NCBI RefSeq assembly: GCF_039645975.1
Contig: NZ_CP147918.1
Span: forward strand, 1,550,001-1,614,000
Reading direction: 5' to 3'
Source of the DNA: Sulfurimonas sp. HSL-1716
Lineage (GTDB): Bacteria; Campylobacterota; Campylobacteria; Campylobacterales; Sulfurimonadaceae
DNA length: 64,000 bases
Part shown: positions 1,323 to 11,721 of the stretch, piece after piece
How the letters are laid out: every line of letters starts with the position of its first letter
Numbering within the stretch: position 1 is the first letter of the stretch
Notes under the pieces: generated by a model
The model's input: only the letters and a program-made list of their open reading frames with translations
Database searches by the model: none
What the model was told of the DNA's origin: nothing
Position numbers and translations under genes: made by a program

Positions 1323-1409
1323 CCTACAAAAGCGCTTTATTCCTACAAAGCGCGTAAATGCCGACAAATTTGTTAGAACGATATATGCAAAAAAGCGGTT
1401 TTTGTAGAA
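1323..1409. repeat. Repeated CCTACAAA-GCGC boxes in the nifH upstream region
   Basis: Two direct copies of CCTACAAA(a)GCGC start at 1323 and 1342, 19 bases apart. A related inverted copy (GCGGTTTTTGTAG read on the plus strand) lies at 1394-1406. Between them, at 1362-1373, is CGACAAATTTGT with a perfect 10-base palindrome. The arrangement suggests regulator binding sites for nifH; no known consensus is assigned. Confidence 0.35.
1374..1389 (+). promoter_or_regulatory. TAGAAC-N5-ATGCA site pointing away from nifH
   Basis: TAGAACGATATATGCA matches the island-wide motif perfectly, but it lies on the plus strand between divergently facing nothing: nifH and the LRR gene are both on the minus strand. 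If it is a promoter it would make a transcript antisense to the LRR/GNAT gene from about 1401. It may instead be a bound but unproductive site, or part of the nifH control region. Confidence 0.4.
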
Positions 1410-1416
1410 AAACAGA

Positions 1417-2931
1417 TCACGCAGAAGATGAAACCGTATAGTGGTAGATATTGAGATGCGTCTTTTTAAAGCCGCGTCTGCTGTAAAACTGCAGCGCGTT
1501 TTTGTTGTCCACATCGGCTGCGAGCTGAATGCGTTTATAGCCGTACTCTACGGCCATACTTCTCATCTTGTTTATAAGACGGCTCCCCACACCCATCTTT
1601 CGGTACTCTTCATGCACCACAAGGTCTTCTATCTGACCGACGTAGTCGCCCTCGGCACTCGAGATGAGACGCTGCATCGTCACCATGCCGACGACTCTGC
1701 CTTCATATTTTGCCGCAAGCAGGTCGCTGCTCTCATGTTCAAAGAGCCGGGTGATCCCGGAGAGCTGTTTGTCGTAATCGATCGTAAAATCCGACTCTAT
1801 TGCAAACAATACACCGAGCAGTTCGGCCATTTGGGGCAGATCCTGTTTTATCGCTTTTTCTATGGTTATTCCTGTTTTCATATTCATATCGCATATCTCC
1901 GGGTTCAAAATGGTTATCACTTTTTTTGCTTCTTCGCCGAGCGGATTGCCGTTTACGTACAATATATTTAGATAAGAGAGATTTGCCAAAGTGTCGGGCA
2001 GCTCTTTTATCTTGTTGCCGTCGATATCCAGCTCTTGCAGCCGTATATATCTGCCTATCTCTTTTGGGATCGTCTCTATCTCGTTAGAGGAAAAGCATAA
2101 AAGTTCCAGATTTTCAGAAGCAGGCAGCAAAAGCTCGCGCAGTCCGCAGCCCTCGCAAGAAAGCTCTTTTAAACAGGGTGCAAAGCCGTCATCGATGTCC
2201 AGTATCTCAAACGGATTGTCGTCAAGGATCAGGCTTTCAAGAGACACGAGAGAGCCAAGATGCAAAGATGCAAGCAGGTTCGAACTCAGATCGACGCGCT
2301 CTACGTCCAGTGCAAAAAAGGCAGCATCTATCTTTTCTATCCTGTTATGCGATGCTGCGAACTCCTCTATGGACGACAGTTCTTTGACTGTTTGGGGTAT
2401 CTCTTTTATGATGTTGTCGCTGATATCGAGTCTCTGGACTTTTTTTAGCATCGAAAAGACACCGCTCATGTCATGCAGCAGATTTGACGAAAGGTTCAGC
2501 GTACGGATCTCATTATTTGAGGCAAAACAGCCGTCTACGCATTTTAAGGCATTGCCGCTTAGATCGAGAACTCTTAGATATTCACACTCTTGTAATATCG
2601 ATACGTCGCTTAACTTGTTGGAGCTCACATTGATGGAGCGAAGGTTTATATCTCTGAGTACAAAAGGCAGCGCCTTAAAACTGTTTCTGCGCAGGTTGAG
2701 ATTGACAAGTCTGCTTAGTTTACGCATCGAATCGGGCAAAGAGTCCAGCTTGTTGTTTGAGAGGTTCAGCGCATTTAAGTTTCTCAGCAGACCGATCTCT
2801 TCGGGCAGCTTTGCTATCTTGCGTCCGCTGAGATCGAGCCTGTTGATCTCTGCGAGCGACCCGATCTTCTCATCGACGGCACCAAGCGATACCAACCAGT
2901 TTTTGAGTCTCTGTTCTTTGCTACTCATCAT
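1417..2931 (-). CDS. Leucine-rich-repeat protein fused to a GNAT acetyltransferase
   Basis: A 504-residue fusion. Residues about 27-335 are a run of 22-24-residue leucine-rich repeats (LxxLxLSxNxL type). Residues about 353-500 form a GNAT domain with the acetyl-CoA loop RKMGVGSRL near 444-452 and a typical NALQFYSRRGF ending. No signal peptide, so cytoplasmic. I chose the ATG at 2931 because GAAGGAG lies 6 bases before it; a GTG at 2946 would sit on that SD. The start overlaps the stop of the preceding gene, so it is the last gene of the nifB operon. LRR domains bind proteins, which suggests a targeted protein acetylase; the substrate is unknown. Confidence 0.85.
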   Translation of the reverse strand: MMSSKEQRLKNWLVSLGAVDEKIGSLAEINRLDLSGRKIAKLPEEIGLLRNLNALNLSNNKLDSLPDSMRKLSRLVNLNLRRNSFKALPFVLRDINLRSINVSSNKLSDVSILQECEYLRVLDLSGNALKCVDGCFASNNEIRTLNLSSNLLHDMSGVFSMLKKVQRLDISDNIIKEIPQTVKELSSIEEFAASHNRIEKIDAAFFALDVERVDLSSNLLASLHLGSLVSLESLILDDNPFEILDIDDGFAPCLKELSCEGCGLRELLLPASENLELLCFSSNEIETIPKEIGRYIRLQELDIDGNKIKELPDTLANLSYLNILYVNGNPLGEEAKKVITILNPEICDMNMKTGITIEKAIKQDLPQMAELLGVLFAIESDFTIDYDKQLSGITRLFEHESSDLLAAKYEGRVVGMVTMQRLISSAEGDYVGQIEDLVVHEEYRKMGVGSRLINKMRSMAVEYGYKRIQLAADVDNKNALQFYSRRGFKKTHLNIYHYTVSSSA

Positions 2932-3199
2932 CGCCGGCTCCTTCACATAATCTTTTGATCCTCTCTAGTCTTTGTTCTATCAAGTAGGCGATCTCGTCAT
3001 AATCGTATCTGCCGTATCGATTCATATCATAAAGCTTCATAAGCACTGCTCTGCAGCAGCTTTTGTTGCATTCTGTCACAAGTTTTTTGGCTTTTTTAAA
3101 CGGGAGAGCCGTGTTTTGGAAGATATCGACCGCTTGGGCGACATTTTTTTGACCGCATTCACAGATCTCCATCTCAAGGATCTTTTGCTTCTCTTGCAT
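2921..3199 (-). CDS. Small cysteine-containing nif-operon protein
   Basis: 92 residues with two Cys pairs: CEC near residues 13-15 and a CNKSCC group near 44-49. The C-terminal half is helical and charged. SD AAAGGAG is well placed before the ATG. It sits between the DUF683 protein and the LRR/GNAT protein on the same strand, overlapping the latter's start. The Cys pattern could bind a metal or Fe-S cluster, but no family is recognised; nif linkage is by operon only. Confidence 0.75.
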   Translation of the reverse strand: MQEKQKILEMEICECGQKNVAQAVDIFQNTALPFKKAKKLVTECNKSCCRAVLMKLYDMNRYGRYDYDEIAYLIEQRLERIKRLCEGAGDDE

Positions 3200-3475: not shown

Positions 3476-4300
3476 TTACAACGAAAACGCGTAGATGTTT
3501 TCAAAGTCGATCTCGGTCGTCACGCCTCGCGACATATGTACAAAGCGCTGTTTGCTTTGAAAATGATACTTTTCATACAGATCGACTACATGTTTGATGC
3601 CCAAAGGGACGTCTGCGACCACTCTTTTTAATCCCCTGAAGTACAGCACCCCGCGCATCATCTTCTCGGCTTCATCTTCGTGCCCTGCGCGGACCTGCCA
3701 AGGACCCAGGTAAACATTTCTTGCATTCACGATGCTTGAGTGCTGAAAACCGTTTGGCAAAGTCAGTTTAAGCGAACTGTTCCTATCCATTTCATCTAGT
3801 AAAAAGTCCATTCTATTCTCATGAAATGTCTCTTTGTCGATCGCAGAGATAACCGCTTCAAAGTTACTTCCGTCCAGCTCTTTGGCATGGGCATTGGTAA
3901 AGTTAAACGGAGGGACTTTTCCGACGTTTATATATCTTCCGACCTGCATCTTCTCCTCAAAACCGTAACCTTTGAAAAAGTCGACCAAATCCGGATTTGC
4001 ATGGATGTAAAGACAATCATATTCGTTCACTGCACCCAAAAGAGTCTCGAATAAACGGCGTCCGATCCCCTGTTTTTGATAGCTTGGTTTAACCATAAAA
4101 TACTTTATCATGGCAGAGTGCTCAAACTCTATGGCCATAACCGCACCTACGAGTTTACCGTTGTCGTATGCACCGTAACACAAATGCGGCGAGTGCATCA
4201 TCATCAGCTTGACATGATAGCCGTCAAGCAACCAGCCTACCTCTTCTGACATGCTTACAAATTCGGCAACATCGATGAATTTAAGCCATCCTATAAACAT
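3476..4300 (-). CDS. GNAT-family acetyltransferase in the nifB operon
   Basis: 274 residues. Residues about 1-135 form a GNAT fold with the acetyl-CoA-binding YQKQGIGRRLF near 95-105 and a DLVDFFKGYGFE ending. The C-terminal half is the second GNAT-like domain found in two-domain acetyltransferases (YitH/Acetyltransf_18 type). It overlaps the end of nifV by 10 bases (translationally coupled) and precedes the DUF683 gene, so it is made with nif proteins. With the LRR/GNAT protein it makes two acetyltransferases in one nif operon. Substrate unknown. Confidence 0.85.
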   Translation of the reverse strand: MFIGWLKFIDVAEFVSMSEEVGWLLDGYHVKLMMMHSPHLCYGAYDNGKLVGAVMAIEFEHSAMIKYFMVKPSYQKQGIGRRLFETLLGAVNEYDCLYIHANPDLVDFFKGYGFEEKMQVGRYINVGKVPPFNFTNAHAKELDGSNFEAVISAIDKETFHENRMDFLLDEMDRNSSLKLTLPNGFQHSSIVNARNVYLGPWQVRAGHEDEAEKMMRGVLYFRGLKRVVADVPLGIKHVVDLYEKYHFQSKQRFVHMSRGVTTEIDFENIYAFSL

Positions 4301-6994: not shown

Positions 6995-7720
6995 TCACTC
7001 CTCTTTATCAAATTCGTCAAGCTGTTTTTGATACTCTTGCTGCTCTTTCTTTTTAAGCTCCGCTTCGCTCATCATCATCACTTTAAGCTTTTTTACGAGA
7101 AATGTTCTGTCGGGAAGTTTTGTCATGTAAGCATATCCGCCGTAGATCATCCCTGTAAAGGTGACGACAACTATAAATTTTTGTAAAAGAGAGAATCTTT
7201 GAACAGGCTCTTTTATCCTCATTTCACATACGCCGCCCGGGCAGTGGCTTGCTTTTTCTCTTCTGATGACACTAAATATCTTACAACCAAGGCAGATAGA
7301 AAAAGCAGCCTCTAAAAAAAGTAAAGCCATACAGATGAGACAGACAAGGACTTTAATGGGATTTGGCTGAAAATCTATGACAAGGTAGTAAAACATGGGC
7401 CATGCAATAATCATCCCAAGCAGCCAGGCGAAACGTTTTTGTTCGGCTCCGACATATTCGGGTGTCTGATTCTGCACAAAAAAACGACCGATCAGCAGGC
7501 TAGGCGCATACTTCGGTTTGATGACACGGATGGTAAAATCGAGCGCAAAAAAGCTCACGAAGTACTCTGAAAAAACCGCCGTTCCAAGCATAACGCCGTT
7601 GGTAAGTCCTAAAAACGCTCCTACAAAAAGTATGCCCGCCGCAGCCCTGGCTTCTCTTTCATTCAAAACTCTTACGTCATATCCCGCAACTTTTTCACCG
7701 TATGCAAATAACTCTTTCAT
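6995..7720 (-). CDS. DUF4395 integral membrane protein
   Basis: 241 residues with about four to five hydrophobic helices in residues 25-150 and 175-200, the DUF4395 hallmark CLGC near residue 146, a CPGGVC Cys pair near 165, and a charged C-terminal tail rich in E, K and Q. DUF4395 proteins are inner-membrane proteins of unknown function, sometimes found with thiol/sulfur metabolism genes. SD GAGGA precedes the ATG. It is separated from nifB by the nifB promoter and has its own -10-like TATAAT upstream, so it may not belong to the nif regulon. Confidence 0.8.
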   Translation of the reverse strand: MKELFAYGEKVAGYDVRVLNEREARAAAGILFVGAFLGLTNGVMLGTAVFSEYFVSFFALDFTIRVIKPKYAPSLLIGRFFVQNQTPEYVGAEQKRFAWLLGMIIAWPMFYYLVIDFQPNPIKVLVCLICMALLFLEAAFSICLGCKIFSVIRREKASHCPGGVCEMRIKEPVQRFSLLQKFIVVVTFTGMIYGGYAYMTKLPDRTFLVKKLKVMMMSEAELKKKEQQEYQKQLDEFDKEE

Positions 7721-7833: not shown

Positions 7834-7849
7834 TAGAACGCTATATGCA
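7834..7849 (+). promoter_or_regulatory. Sigma-54-like promoter of the Tpx-like/SIR2-like/clpP/clpX operon
   Basis: TAGAACGCTATATGCA, AG-N10-GC spacing. The predicted start near 7860 leaves about 20 bases to the ATG at 7881. It differs from the nifH-proximal site at 1374 at only one of 16 positions. Confidence 0.65.
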
Positions 7850-7880
7850 AATACTTGGCTAATTATATAAAGTACAGTCT

Positions 7881-8432
7881 ATGAAGACGATAAAAAAGTC
7901 TTTTAAAGGAGCTCACTTGCAGATAAAGTACGGCACATACACGATGCGTCTTGATGAGATGCCTCTTGACATCGGTTATGCATCCGACAAGGTCGGTGTA
8001 AAAGGTAAAAACGGCAAAGAACACACCATCGGCGGGCAAAACGGAAAGACTCAGCTCATCATCACTGCGCCTTTCATAGACGAAAATCTTTTAAAAGAGC
8101 TTCGGGAGATGGAAGCCTCGCTGCCAAACACAGCAGAGCATGAGGTCACGGCCTCACTTGTACTGGCACATGAACTAAAAAACGATTTGGCCCTTGCAAA
8201 ATTCAAGCAGTATACAGACAAAAAAGAGGAGTTCGGCGATCTCTACGGTGTCAGGCTCAGCGGCGAACCCTACGAAAGAGAGCTTACAAAAGCTGTCTTT
8301 CTTATCTCAAAAGACGGCGCGCTTTTTTATGACGAGATCGCAAAAGACCTGAGCGAGAGATTCGACCAAGAGACGCTTATGAGAAAAATATACGCAGCAC
8401 AAACCTGTTATACGGGTAAAGGATGCCACTAA
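7881..8432 (+). CDS. Thiol-peroxidase-like (redoxin fold) protein lacking the catalytic cysteines
   Basis: 183 residues. From about residue 25 the order of motifs follows thiol peroxidase (Tpx): a strand before the active site (QLIITAPFID), LVLAHEL, then FGDLYGVRL and AVFLISKDGALFYDEI. The position of the peroxidatic Cys in Tpx (DTGVC) is here DENLL (residues 67-71), and the resolving-Cys segment is AKFKQY. The only cysteines are Cys176 and Cys182 at the extreme C-terminus (CX5C). It is probably not a normal peroxidase. An in-frame TTG at 7917 has a better SD (AAAGGAG) than the ATG at 7881. First gene of the operon with clpP/clpX. Confidence 0.75.
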   Translation: MKTIKKSFKGAHLQIKYGTYTMRLDEMPLDIGYASDKVGVKGKNGKEHTIGGQNGKTQLIITAPFIDENLLKELREMEASLPNTAEHEVTASLVLAHELKNDLALAKFKQYTDKKEEFGDLYGVRLSGEPYERELTKAVFLISKDGALFYDEIAKDLSERFDQETLMRKIYAAQTCYTGKGCH

Positions 8433-9262
8433 TGAACGAGATGATACAAAACATAAAAAAAGAGTTGAGAAACCAAACGACCGTACCCTATTTCGGACTG
8501 GGAATATTTCAGGGCATCACAACGAAAAACGGTGAAGAGATGCCTTATGATTCGGATTCGATGATACTTGCGATGAACAGCGGAAGAGCGATGAGCCAAA
8601 GGCTGATGTTCGAGTATTCACGCGCTGCCATGCACCTCGAACAGCGCAGGGGTGTAGAGTATATGACCCAGCTTATGAACCATATCTACACAAAAGAGTT
8701 CGAGCCTACCTCTTTGCAAAAAGCGGTGCTGGACATGTCGCCGCGCTACATCATAGATACCAACCGCGATATGAAGATACAAGAACTCTTGGCGTATGAA
8801 CCACACTGTCTTATCATCGGCAAATCAAGAATAATGGCTGATAAAAACAGATATGAAGTGTATGAGTACGACGTCGAGAACAAAAAATACTTTCTTGTAG
8901 AAGACGAAGTCTTGGACAATGCGAAGAAAATACTTTTCAAACCGATGGGCTCGCCCCTACCTGAGCCGAGCTTCATCATCTCCGATGCCGATTATGTGGA
9001 TTGGCTGACCGAAGCTATGGGCGGGTTTGCGCTTCCTTGCATATTAAAGACATATAGAAAGACAAAAAAGTATCTTTTTTTAGGCACATCGTTCGACCGC
9101 GATACCGACAGAATGGTCGCCAACGAGCTGACACTCAATCTTGAAGGCGGTTACGTCATCACGGACAAAGAACTTGGTAAAAAAGAGAAAAAATTCATCG
9201 AAAAACATAACTTGGAAGTCATCGACATGTCGCTTCAAGATTTCATAAAAGAGTTCGTTTAA
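8432..9262 (+). CDS. SIR2-like protein with altered catalytic motifs
   Basis: 276 residues resembling SIR2_2-type NAD-binding proteins: PYFGLGIF near residues 20-26 in place of the GAGxS loop, a TNRD near 110-113 in place of TNYD, a following segment with acidic DADY, and a C-terminal YLFLGTSFDRDTDR like the SIR2_2 LGxxxxD motif. The usual KLHGS, which supplies the catalytic His, reads KPMGS (about 170-174). NAD cleavage or deacetylation is therefore doubtful. I chose the ATG at 8432 (overlapping TAATG, SD AAAGGA); an ATG at 8423 is possible. The family call is by motif reading and is moderate. Confidence 0.6.
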   Translation: MNEMIQNIKKELRNQTTVPYFGLGIFQGITTKNGEEMPYDSDSMILAMNSGRAMSQRLMFEYSRAAMHLEQRRGVEYMTQLMNHIYTKEFEPTSLQKAVLDMSPRYIIDTNRDMKIQELLAYEPHCLIIGKSRIMADKNRYEVYEYDVENKKYFLVEDEVLDNAKKILFKPMGSPLPEPSFIISDADYVDWLTEAMGGFALPCILKTYRKTKKYLFLGTSFDRDTDRMVANELTLNLEGGYVITDKELGKKEKKFIEKHNLEVIDMSLQDFIKEFV

Positions 9263-9296
9263 TAGGGACAGAGAACATAACACAAGGAGTTTGTAA

Positions 9297-9896
9297 ATGC
9301 CAATAATACCGACAGTAAAAGACCTCTCGCCCAGAGGCGAGAGATATTTTGACCTTTTTTCAAAACTTTTAAACGACCGCGTCATCATCATCACCGAACA
9401 AGTGGACGACCAGATGATGGGCATCATCGTCTCTCAGCTTCTCTACCTTGAAGCAGAGGATTCAAGTGAACCCATCCATATGTACATCAGCTCGCCGGGC
9501 GGTTCAGTGATGGCAGGACTTGCCATCCTCGATACGATGCAGCTCATCTGCGCACCCGTCTACACATACGCGATGGGAATGGTCGCTTCCATGGCAGCCG
9601 TCCTTTTTACATGCGGCGAGAAGGGACACAGGTATATGCTGCCAAATGCCCAGATCATGATACATCAGCCTTTAGGCGGCGCATCCGGACAGGCAAGCGA
9701 CATAGAGATACAGGCAAAACATATCATGAACCTTAAAAAAAGACTCTACAAAATCATTTCAAAGGCGACGGAAAAACATGTTAAGACTATTGAAAAACAG
9801 AGCGATCGTGACAACTATTTTGAAGCAGAAGAGGCTATTGCATTTGGATTGGCCGACACAATACTAAGCAGCATTGAAAAAAAGGATAATCGATGA
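9297..9896 (+). CDS. clpP2: Second ClpP protease subunit, nif-linked
   Basis: Serine peptidase that forms the 14-subunit chamber of ClpXP. The 199-residue protein has the full triad: Ser98 in GMVASMAA, His123 in MIHQP, and Asp172 in SDRDNYF. SD AAGGAG precedes the ATG. Housekeeping ClpP usually carries GQAASM at the nucleophile; GMVASM here, together with the setting between a SIR2-like gene and clpX under a nif-type promoter, points to a dedicated copy. It overlaps clpX by four bases (ATGA). Confidence 0.92.
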   Translation: MPIIPTVKDLSPRGERYFDLFSKLLNDRVIIITEQVDDQMMGIIVSQLLYLEAEDSSEPIHMYISSPGGSVMAGLAILDTMQLICAPVYTYAMGMVASMAAVLFTCGEKGHRYMLPNAQIMIHQPLGGASGQASDIEIQAKHIMNLKKRLYKIISKATEKHVKTIEKQSDRDNYFEAEEAIAFGLADTILSSIEKKDNR

Positions 9897-11101
9897 GCCA
9901 AGAGAAAATCTGCTCGTTTTGCGGGCGCAAACAAAGCGAAGTCAAAAAGATGTTCTCATCGGAGAAGACGCATATCTGTAACGAGTGTATCGCTACATGT
10001 TCGAACATCCTGCAAAAAGAGGTGAAGTACGAACAGCGCGCGCAGATGCAAGAACAGCTTCCAAAACCCCAAAAGATCGTCGAGCATCTCGACAAACACA
10101 TTATTGGTCAAGAAGATGCGAAAAAAGTACTGGCAGTCGCTTTGTACAACCACTACAAACGCATCGAGAGTCCCATCTACAACAATGTAGAACTTGAAAA
10201 AAGCAACATCCTGCTTTTGGGACCAACGGGCAGCGGCAAGACCCTTCTTGCAAAATCACTGGCTCGTATCATGAAGGTTCCTTTTGCCATAGCCGATGCG
10301 ACTGCACTGACTGAAGCCGGATATGTTGGCGAGGACGTCGAGAGCATCCTCTCGCGCCTGCTCGCCGCTGCGAACTACGACATCGAACTTGCTCAAAGAG
10401 GGATCATCTACATAGACGAGATAGACAAGATTGCACGAAAAAGCGAATCTTCCACTATGGGACGCGATGTCTCCGGCGAAGGCGTACAGCAGGGACTTTT
10501 AAAGATACTAGAAGGTGCAGAGGTCTACGTTCCTCTCAAGGGAAGCCGTAAAAATTCAACGACGGAGACCGTGCTTTTTGACACATCTCATGTACTTTTT
10601 GTCTGCGGCGGAGCGTTTGTGGGACTGGTCCCCGACACAAACAGTAAAAAAAGCAACAGAGTCGGTTTCGGTTCGCTCAAAGACAAAGAGGCGAAAGAGT
10701 TCAAAGTCGACCAAAAAGCGCTCGTGCATTACGGCATCATTCCCGAGTTCATCGGACGTATCCCCGTCATAGCCCAGCTTAAAGAGCTGACAAAAGAGCA
10801 GATGGTTCAGATTTTAAAAGAGCCAGACAACGCGCTCATTAAACAGTTTCAGGCTCTCTTTGAGATGGACGGCATAACGCTGCGGTTCGAAGACAAAGCA
10901 CTCGAAGCGATCGCTCAACAAGCGATAGAAAAAGGCGTGGGTGCCAGAGGGCTTCGAGGGATCATCGAAGAGGTGATGCTGCCGCTTCAATACTCCTGCC
11001 CTTCGCGCGAAGATCTACAGAGTTGTACCATAACAGAAGCGCTCGTAAAAGATCCTTCAAAAGAACCAATATTTACCTATAAAACGGAAAAAGAAGCGTA
11101 A
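9893..11101 (+). CDS. clpX2: Second ClpX unfoldase, nif-linked
   Basis: AAA+ unfoldase that feeds substrates to ClpP. The 402-residue protein has an N-terminal C4 zinc domain (C7, C10, C29, C32), Walker A GPTGSGKT at 110-117, pore loop GYVG near 143-146, Walker B IIYIDE at 171-176, and a ClpP-docking tripeptide VGF at 257-259 where E. coli ClpX has IGF. A nif-cluster ClpX (ClpX2) is known in Azotobacter vinelandii, where it affects levels of cofactor-assembly proteins. A similar quality-control role is inferred here. Confidence 0.93.
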
Positions 11102-11154: not shown

Positions 11155-11721
11155 ATGTCAAAAGTACAAGAGTTCATCTATGAAAACAACCTGCAATGGC
11201 AGGCATCGTTCAGTGCAAAAACGGATAAGTACGCTTACGGATACAGAGGAAGTCTGGTGATCACTCCGGGTAAGGTTATGTCTGCGGACAAACAGCTGCC
11301 GCCAAAAGCGACCGCTACTCAAGCCATCTTGGTGAGCAGCGGCGATAAGATCGATTTTCTCGCTTGCGAACTGGAGAGTTTGGATTTTTTTGAGCCTTTT
11401 GTAGAGCGTTACAAAGAGGTTCTTTCACCAAGCGGTCTGTACATACTTTTCGTGACGGATCTCGACGGTGACGGCAAGTTTGAATACGAAGGTTTCACTT
11501 TCTACACGTTCGCACTCGATGAAAGTTCAGTATGGAACGAGCTTTTAGACCACGCCGACCTTTCAAAAGGCGATCTGAAAAAAGCGAGTGCCGAAGAGAA
11601 GATCGACATCGTATACGACGAGATCAAAGGGAGTACTTTACGTATGAGCGGCAAGTCTTACGACGAGATCAAAGCGCTTCAAAACGAAGACGCGGGAAAA
11701 ACACTTTTTGGAGCCGTCTGA
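11155..11721 (+). CDS. Unknown nif-regulated protein with an EF-hand-like loop
   Basis: 188 residues, no signal peptide. Near residues 103-113 it carries DLDGDGKFEYE, which fits a calcium-type EF-hand loop, but the flanking segments look like strands rather than the usual two helices. The C-terminal third is acidic. Start at 11155 chosen by SD AAGGA 8 bases upstream and by the promoter position. It is a single-gene unit ending against a convergent HAD gene. I do not recognise the family; nif association comes from the promoter motif and location. Confidence 0.8.
   Translation: MSKVQEFIYENNLQWQASFSAKTDKYAYGYRGSLVITPGKVMSADKQLPPKATATQAILVSSGDKIDFLACELESLDFFEPFVERYKEVLSPSGLYILFVTDLDGDGKFEYEGFTFYTFALDESSVWNELLDHADLSKGDLKKASAEEKIDIVYDEIKGSTLRMSGKSYDEIKALQNEDAGKTLFGAV

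Follow-up and report, generated by a model that had tools for sequence, protein, structure and literature searches.

A nif-linked operon encoding a Tpx-fold protein, a SIR2-like protein and a second ClpX and ClpP in Sulfurimonas: a possible module for the turnover of nitrogenase assembly proteins

The stretch of DNA analysed here, referred to as the window, is a 64-kb segment (positions 1550001-1614000, contig NZ_CP147918.1) of the 2.26 Mb genome of Sulfurimonas sp. HSL-1716. Within it an operon downstream of a nif-type promoter encodes two proteins with enzyme folds from which catalytic residues have been lost, P1 with a thiol peroxidase (Tpx) fold and P2 with a SIR2 fold, together with a second ClpP (ClpP2) and a second ClpX (ClpX2). 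Through comparison with relatives from Sulfurimonas, Sulfuricurvum and other Campylobacterota we arrive, with roughly even confidence, at the view that the operon is a NifA-dependent maturation and turnover module for nitrogenase assembly, in which ClpX2 and ClpP carry out the turnover, P1 works together with ClpX2, and P2 contributes to maturation without being an enzyme. The clients, the binding, what is sensed and the direction of regulation we infer as follows. The module would be under the control of NifA and sigma54, and ClpX2 would unfold or degrade cofactor-assembly proteins, with clients of the NifB or NifEN type, during nitrogen fixation. For this it would dock on its own ClpP2 in the clade to which the window belongs and on the housekeeping ClpP elsewhere. 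P2 would contribute to nitrogenase maturation by binding, whether or not ClpX2 is present, while P1 would most likely serve alongside ClpX2 as a delivery factor, a regulated client or a sensor responsive to thiols or metals.

The linkage to nitrogen fixation was assessed across 397 Campylobacterota genomes, of which the 74 with a full-length NifB were taken as nif+. A lack of co-occurrence with nif genes was one of the outcomes by which an initial annotation of this DNA had offered to be refuted, and it was not borne out: P2 was found in 71 of the 74 nif+ genomes and in just one of the other 323 (Fisher 9e-74, a value that ignores phylogeny, the counts being by genome and not of independent events). 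That one genome, G223, carries at locus L141 nifH, nifB, a leucine-rich-repeat gene, P2 and clpX2 split by frameshifts or stops, which points either to a nif cluster in decay or to an assembly with many errors. ClpX2 is present in 56 of the nif+ genomes and in none of the others, and all 52 genomes with P1 are nif+. P1 follows ClpX2 closely, being found in 51 of the 56 nif+ genomes with ClpX2 as against one of the 18 without it. A separate observation concerns NifB itself: a radical SAM protein of 282 residues that resembles NifB but has no NifX domain is found in G154, G082, G212 and other genomes of one genus (f3/g9) that have no full-length NifB.

P1 matches the NCBIfam profile NF045827 (Prx-SUH) with an E value of 3e-10, and a profile comparison with the Aquifex Tpx gives 7.7e-13. 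The AlphaFold model (pLDDT 91) agrees with these profiles, Foldseek matching it to 2yzh with an E value of 6.5e-14 and a TM of 0.83. The initial annotation's description of a Tpx fold without either active cysteine is thus borne out. The position of the peroxidatic cysteine is never a cysteine among the relatives, being mostly isoleucine, lysine or leucine, and the PxxxTxxC motif is missing, as is the resolving cysteine; the active-site arginine of Tpx is replaced by an invariant lysine. It would seem likely from these substitutions that P1 can no longer reduce peroxide. Overlooked at the time was the C-terminal tail, which is predicted to be disordered in the model. In each of the 51 relatives aligned the protein finishes with Y[TN]GxGCH, followed by one further residue at most, and the tail is more conserved than the body of the protein, where the mean column identity is 48%. 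Since the tail is conserved beyond the body, it is likely to be the working part of P1. Among the open reading frames of at least 50 codons in the window, that of P1 is alone in ending with GCH followed by no more than three residues. A search of plasmids with P1 gave no match at an E value of 0.1, and P1 was seen in Campylobacterota only, the ground covered outside the phylum being plasmids and not the chromosomes of other phyla.

The best reading of P1 is a factor associated with ClpX2, with a Cys-His tail that may be a recognition element, a metal ligand or an oxidation sensor. The suggestion in the initial annotation that P1 is a partner of the protease or a redox sensor would appear to be strengthened by the invariant tail. 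A more specific version has the tail binding an iron-sulphur or cofactor species, or detecting when that species is oxidised, and determining through ClpX2 the fate of cofactor-assembly proteins, retention or destruction. This we think improbable; if true, P1 and ClpX2 would constitute a nitrogenase-specific redox-gated proteolysis switch replacing control of the NifL or DraT type.

P2, like 38 of 38 relatives, passes the cut-off of PF13289 (SIR2-like). The nearest solved folds to its model lie at Z values of 16-19, with VIA Z 19.2 to ThsA and 17 to DSR2 and KomC. A sequence search of the PDB with an alignment of Campylobacterota P2 only gave nothing meaningful, while adding proteobacterial rows retrieved ThsA. 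As had been noted for this protein, where the KLHGS of SIR2 reads KPMGS, the catalytic histidine is gone: the motif is KP[ML]G in 71 of 71 Campylobacterota sequences, with the histidine in none, and the serine of GAGxS is a phenylalanine in every one. Asn114 (counted from a second in-frame ATG upstream, at 8423) is kept in 68 of the 71, and the most conserved stretch is SDAD[FY]VDWLTEAM. NADase chemistry has presumably been lost with these residues. PADLOC gave weak SIR2 matches at most, and a role in defence is therefore not favoured.

A search of 72,556 plasmids with P2 by tblastn gave 72 records with E values down to 1e-18, all from Rhizobium, Sinorhizobium, Mesorhizobium, Bradyrhizobium, Methylococcus or Paraburkholderia. 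Seven of these neighbourhoods were inspected and all seven are nif clusters without a Clp gene nearby, most of the rhizobial ones having the order nifA-nifB-fdxN-nifZ-nifT-SIR2 or nearly so; in Methylococcus and Paraburkholderia, too, the homologue belongs to a nifB/nifZ/nifT operon. The homologues are 20-27% identical to P2, match it over the full length and share the motif SD[AS]D[YF]V..LTE. In the eight that were aligned the catalytic asparagine, placed by alignment to TTNYD of ThsA, is replaced by tryptophan (D-x-W-Y-D), and the position of the histidine is occupied by histidine, leucine, isoleucine or tyrosine. In a scan of contigs all those of the best 80 of 122 relatives that have a named lineage are Campylobacterota, and the distant homologues were therefore found through plasmids only. 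P2 would thus appear to be the Campylobacterota branch of a SIR2-like family of proteobacterial nif operons. Such genes have been published with no function given, so that the SIR2-like part is not undescribed, as the initial annotation had supposed (PMC3538637, PMC6925177, PMC8594446): Msi351 of Mesorhizobium loti is regulated by NifA (PMC3538637), Rcc03262 of Rhodobacter capsulatus was not found in a nifA mutant (PMC6925177), and PST_1325 of Pseudomonas stutzeri (PMC11332353) and ZMO1821 of Zymomonas mobilis (PMC8594446) are nif-cluster proteins without an assigned function. Their kinship with the homologues found here rests on operon position and annotation.

The same substitutions bear on whether P2 could still be an enzyme, for example a sirtuin-like ADP-ribosyltransferase without the histidine that modifies a nitrogenase protein in the manner of DraT. 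Some ADP-ribosylating sirtuins lack the classical histidine, and P2 has both the SIR2 fold and, in most Campylobacterota members, the asparagine. The DraT profile (PF07357) had no match in 10 of these genomes, but it matched no control either, so that the absence of DraT is not shown. The proteobacterial homologues have tryptophan for the asparagine, some retaining the histidine, and no member of the alignment (A5) carries both, while the phenylalanine in GAGxS is found in every Campylobacterota member. We regard an enzymatic role as very unlikely.

ClpP2 matches PF00574 with an E value of 2e-71 and has Ser98, His123 and Asp172, so that the intact triad noted initially is confirmed. ClpX2 has the zf-C4_ClpX zinc finger and the Walker motifs and scores above the cut-off of the ClpX equivalog NF003745/TIGR00382, in agreement with its description as a second ClpX. 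The housekeeping copies, ClpP1 (48% identity) and ClpX1 (51%), are encoded elsewhere in the genome. In a tree ClpX2 forms a single clade separate from ClpX1 with a support of 100/100, and a search of plasmids with ClpX2 retrieved ClpX from many genera, the identities being about 50-55%. ClpP2 is restricted to the Sulfurimonadaceae-type clade. There, the IGF-type loop of ClpX2 that docks on ClpP reads VG[FL], whereas elsewhere it is almost always [ML]GF, and it is LGF in ClpX1. This is as would be expected if the loop had adapted to ClpP2, and the pattern fits ClpX2 having a private ClpP2 in this clade while relying on the shared ClpP in the others. In Azotobacter vinelandii clpX2 is situated within the nif cluster (PMC9866876) and, according to the title of Martinez-Noel 2011 (cited by PMC5715403), regulates the levels of NifB and NifEN. 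The clpX-clpP genes of Azoarcus BH72 (azo2070-azo2071) are described in PMC3916325 as controlled by NifA and both raised under nitrogen fixation. By analogy with these two systems, the most likely role of ClpX2 and ClpP would be to remove cofactor-assembly proteins during fixation.

The arrangement of the genes differs among the lineages, the names of which, such as Sulfurospirillum-type, are inferred assignments. Genomes of the Arcobacter and Sulfurovum types and part of the Sulfurospirillum type have nifA-P1-P2-clpX2, and the Sulfurimonadaceae have nifX-like-P1-P2-clpP2-clpX2-nifS-P5. The presence of the module in these two nif contexts supports the reading as a nitrogenase-assembly module, though the four genes of the initial annotation are not a fixed unit, ClpP2 being confined to one clade. 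The main Sulfurospirillum-type genus has only nifA-P2, both flanking genes, P1 and clpX2, being missing; in G117 and G394 P2-clpX2 adjoins nifB, and in G166 clpX2 adjoins nifA without P2. The proximity to nifA would suit a different role, in which P1 and P2, like NifL, would respond to the redox or nucleotide state and adjust the activity of NifA or its turnover by ClpX2. It is seen in the nifA-P1-P2-clpX2 and nifA-P2 arrangements and in G166. Yet the P2-clpX2 of G117 stands by nifB in a genome without a full NifA match (the best covers query residues 214-494), nifA lies elsewhere in the Sulfurimonadaceae, 26 kb before the window in this genome, and the proteobacterial homologue of P2 follows nifT in the nifB operon, itself a target of NifA. 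Regulation of NifA by these proteins is accordingly something of a long shot.

The initial annotation had proposed instead that P1 and P2 are adaptors or redox sensors passing damaged nitrogenase proteins to a private ClpXP. Both are binding folds stripped of their catalytic residues and share an operon with clpX2 and clpP2, and for P1 the co-occurrence with ClpX2 points the same way. For P2, however, about 17 of the 72 genomes that encode it have no ClpX2, which argues against a dedicated adaptor, and its homologues in nifB-fdxN-nifZ-nifT operons have no Clp gene; moreover L217 and L219-L221 keep P1-P2 while the clp genes are missing there. We find it rather unlikely that both proteins are adaptors, the proposal being too narrow as regards P2. 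Since P2 persists without ClpX2 and distant homologues of it occur in nif operons of Proteobacteria, the best reading of P2 is a general, non-catalytic nif maturation factor independent of ClpX2, and P1 is the better candidate for a partner of ClpX2.

Several points weigh against the assembly module that we prefer. About 18 nif+ genomes have no ClpX2, which is therefore not essential for fixation, and that one genus lacks both P1 and ClpX2 may go back to a single event. P1-P2 is kept without an adjoining Clp gene in G360 and in the Sulfurimonadaceae-type loci named above. Finally, the mutant in msi351, the homologue-like gene of M. loti, is symbiotically effective (PMC3538637); the gene is dispensable for symbiotic fixation there, so that P2 is not necessarily central to assembly.

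The four open reading frames are confirmed as tightly packed genes on the plus strand (Table 1). The junction of P1 and P2 reads TAATG, 34 bp separate P2 from ClpP2, and ClpP2 and ClpX2 overlap by 4 bp. A further gene on the same strand, P5, probably closes the operon; in relatives nifS sits between clpX2 and P5. Ahead of the operon nifH, nifV and nifB lie on the minus strand.

Table 1. Features of the operon, with positions counted in the window.
Feature	Position	Strand	Basis
nif-type (sigma54 -24/-12-like) promoter site TAGAACGCTATATGCA	7834..7849	+	67 bp upstream of the P1 TTG start
Probable 3'-end remnant of a nifX-like gene, containing the Shine-Dalgarno of P1	7881..7916	+	Comparison with relatives
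P1, Tpx fold without peroxidatic and resolving Cys, tail Y[TN]GxGCH	7917..8432	+	Profiles, alignments, AlphaFold/Foldseek
P2, SIR2 fold (ThsA/DSR2-like), KLHG His to Met/Leu, GAGxS Ser to Phe	8432..9262	+	Pfam, alignments, structure comparison
ClpP2, second proteolytic subunit, triad Ser98/His123/Asp172 intact	9297..9896	+	Profiles, alignment
ClpX2, second ClpX ATPase, docking loop VGF (residues 257-259; LGF in ClpX1)	9893..11101	+	Profiles, tree, alignment
P5, nif-linked conserved 188-residue protein of unknown family	11155..11721	+	53 bp after clpX2; comparison of nif loci

The nif-type promoter that had been proposed ahead of P1 is one of five sites in the window with the motif TAGAACRNNNNWTGCA, where 0.05 would be expected, though this TAGAAC motif was defined post hoc, after the sites had been seen. 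Four of the five stand 40-85 bp upstream of nif-type operons, those of P1, nifB, fdx and a nifU-like gene. A looser version of the motif is likewise enriched (8 against 1.5 expected), and a match of at least 11 of 12 positions is found upstream of P1 in 9 of 28 relatives as against 20 of 840 random 200-bp stretches. The canonical sigma54 consensus TGGCAY-N5-TTGCW showed no enrichment in the window, with 23 sites found and 25 expected. A further promoter-like site, TAGAACGATATATGCA at 1374-1389 (+), lies between nifH and the leucine-rich-repeat gene and points away from nifH, with no obvious downstream gene on the same strand; it is possibly the promoter of an antisense RNA or due to chance.

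P1 most likely starts at TTG 7917 because the Shine-Dalgarno sequence AAAGGAG (7905-7911) precedes it and the relatives begin there. An ATG at 7881 is disfavoured, the 12 extra residues looking like what is left of the C-terminal end of a nifX-like gene. Such a gene, with a weak match to PF02579, lies at 7092-7529 of locus L172 and in the same place in L168 and L215; it overlaps the start of P1 and reads ...AIKNFLIGAS at its end in relatives. Unlike in the relatives, the nifX-like gene and nifS are absent from the P1 operon of the window, a short remnant of the former being left; the closest NifS-like gene of the genome (60% identity) is located far from the operon.

P5 has no Pfam or NCBIfam match. 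Its identity is 74-90% among related nif loci, against 51-53% for L230 and L231, and it has an EF-hand-like stretch, DLDGDGKFEYEG. The nifB-nifV run of genes in the window also holds a fusion of leucine-rich repeats with a GNAT domain (1417-2946, minus strand) and a separate GNAT protein (3476-4300, minus strand); leucine-rich-repeat proteins are likewise found within nif operons of Methylococcus and Paraburkholderia.

How half-built nitrogenase cofactor proteins are disposed of or protected is poorly known and bears on the transfer of nitrogenase to other hosts. From Campylobacterota to rhizobia, the SIR2-like protein of nif operons is widespread and has been stripped of catalytic residues along two separate routes, so that a non-enzymatic role can be put directly to the test. 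P1 is a second, lineage-specific factor with a seven-residue tail open to mutation, and a ClpX docking loop is identified that differs where a private ClpP exists. While nif-linked ClpX and the nif-linked SIR2-like gene were already known separately, within the literature searched the new elements are P1 and its tail, the module of P1, P2 and clpX2, the loss of SIR2 catalytic residues in two ways and the change of docking loop with ClpP2.

Compared with known systems, P1 shares its fold and sequence profile with Tpx of the Prx-SUH type along the whole body, but differs in the lost PxxxTxxC motif and resolving cysteine, the lysine for arginine and the added tail. The closest solved folds to P2 are those of the phage-defence NADases ThsA, DSR2 and KomC, from which it is set apart by an incomplete Asn and His pair, the altered GAGxS loop and a nif setting in which no defence neighbours were seen. 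Msi351, Rcc03262, PST_1325 and ZMO1821 resemble P2 as SIR2-like proteins of nif clusters, the first two also being NifA-dependent; in the proteobacterial homologues compared it is the asparagine that is lost rather than (always) the histidine, and most follow nifT. Azoarcus BH72 also raises a ClpX and a ClpP during fixation under NifA, though the part of the source used here reports no P1 and does not show a duplicate private pair. A. vinelandii ClpX2, compared by description only, is likewise a second ClpX encoded among nif genes and tied to nitrogen fixation; here the operon adds P1 and P2 (and nifA, or nifX and nifS), and in one clade ClpP2 joins them.

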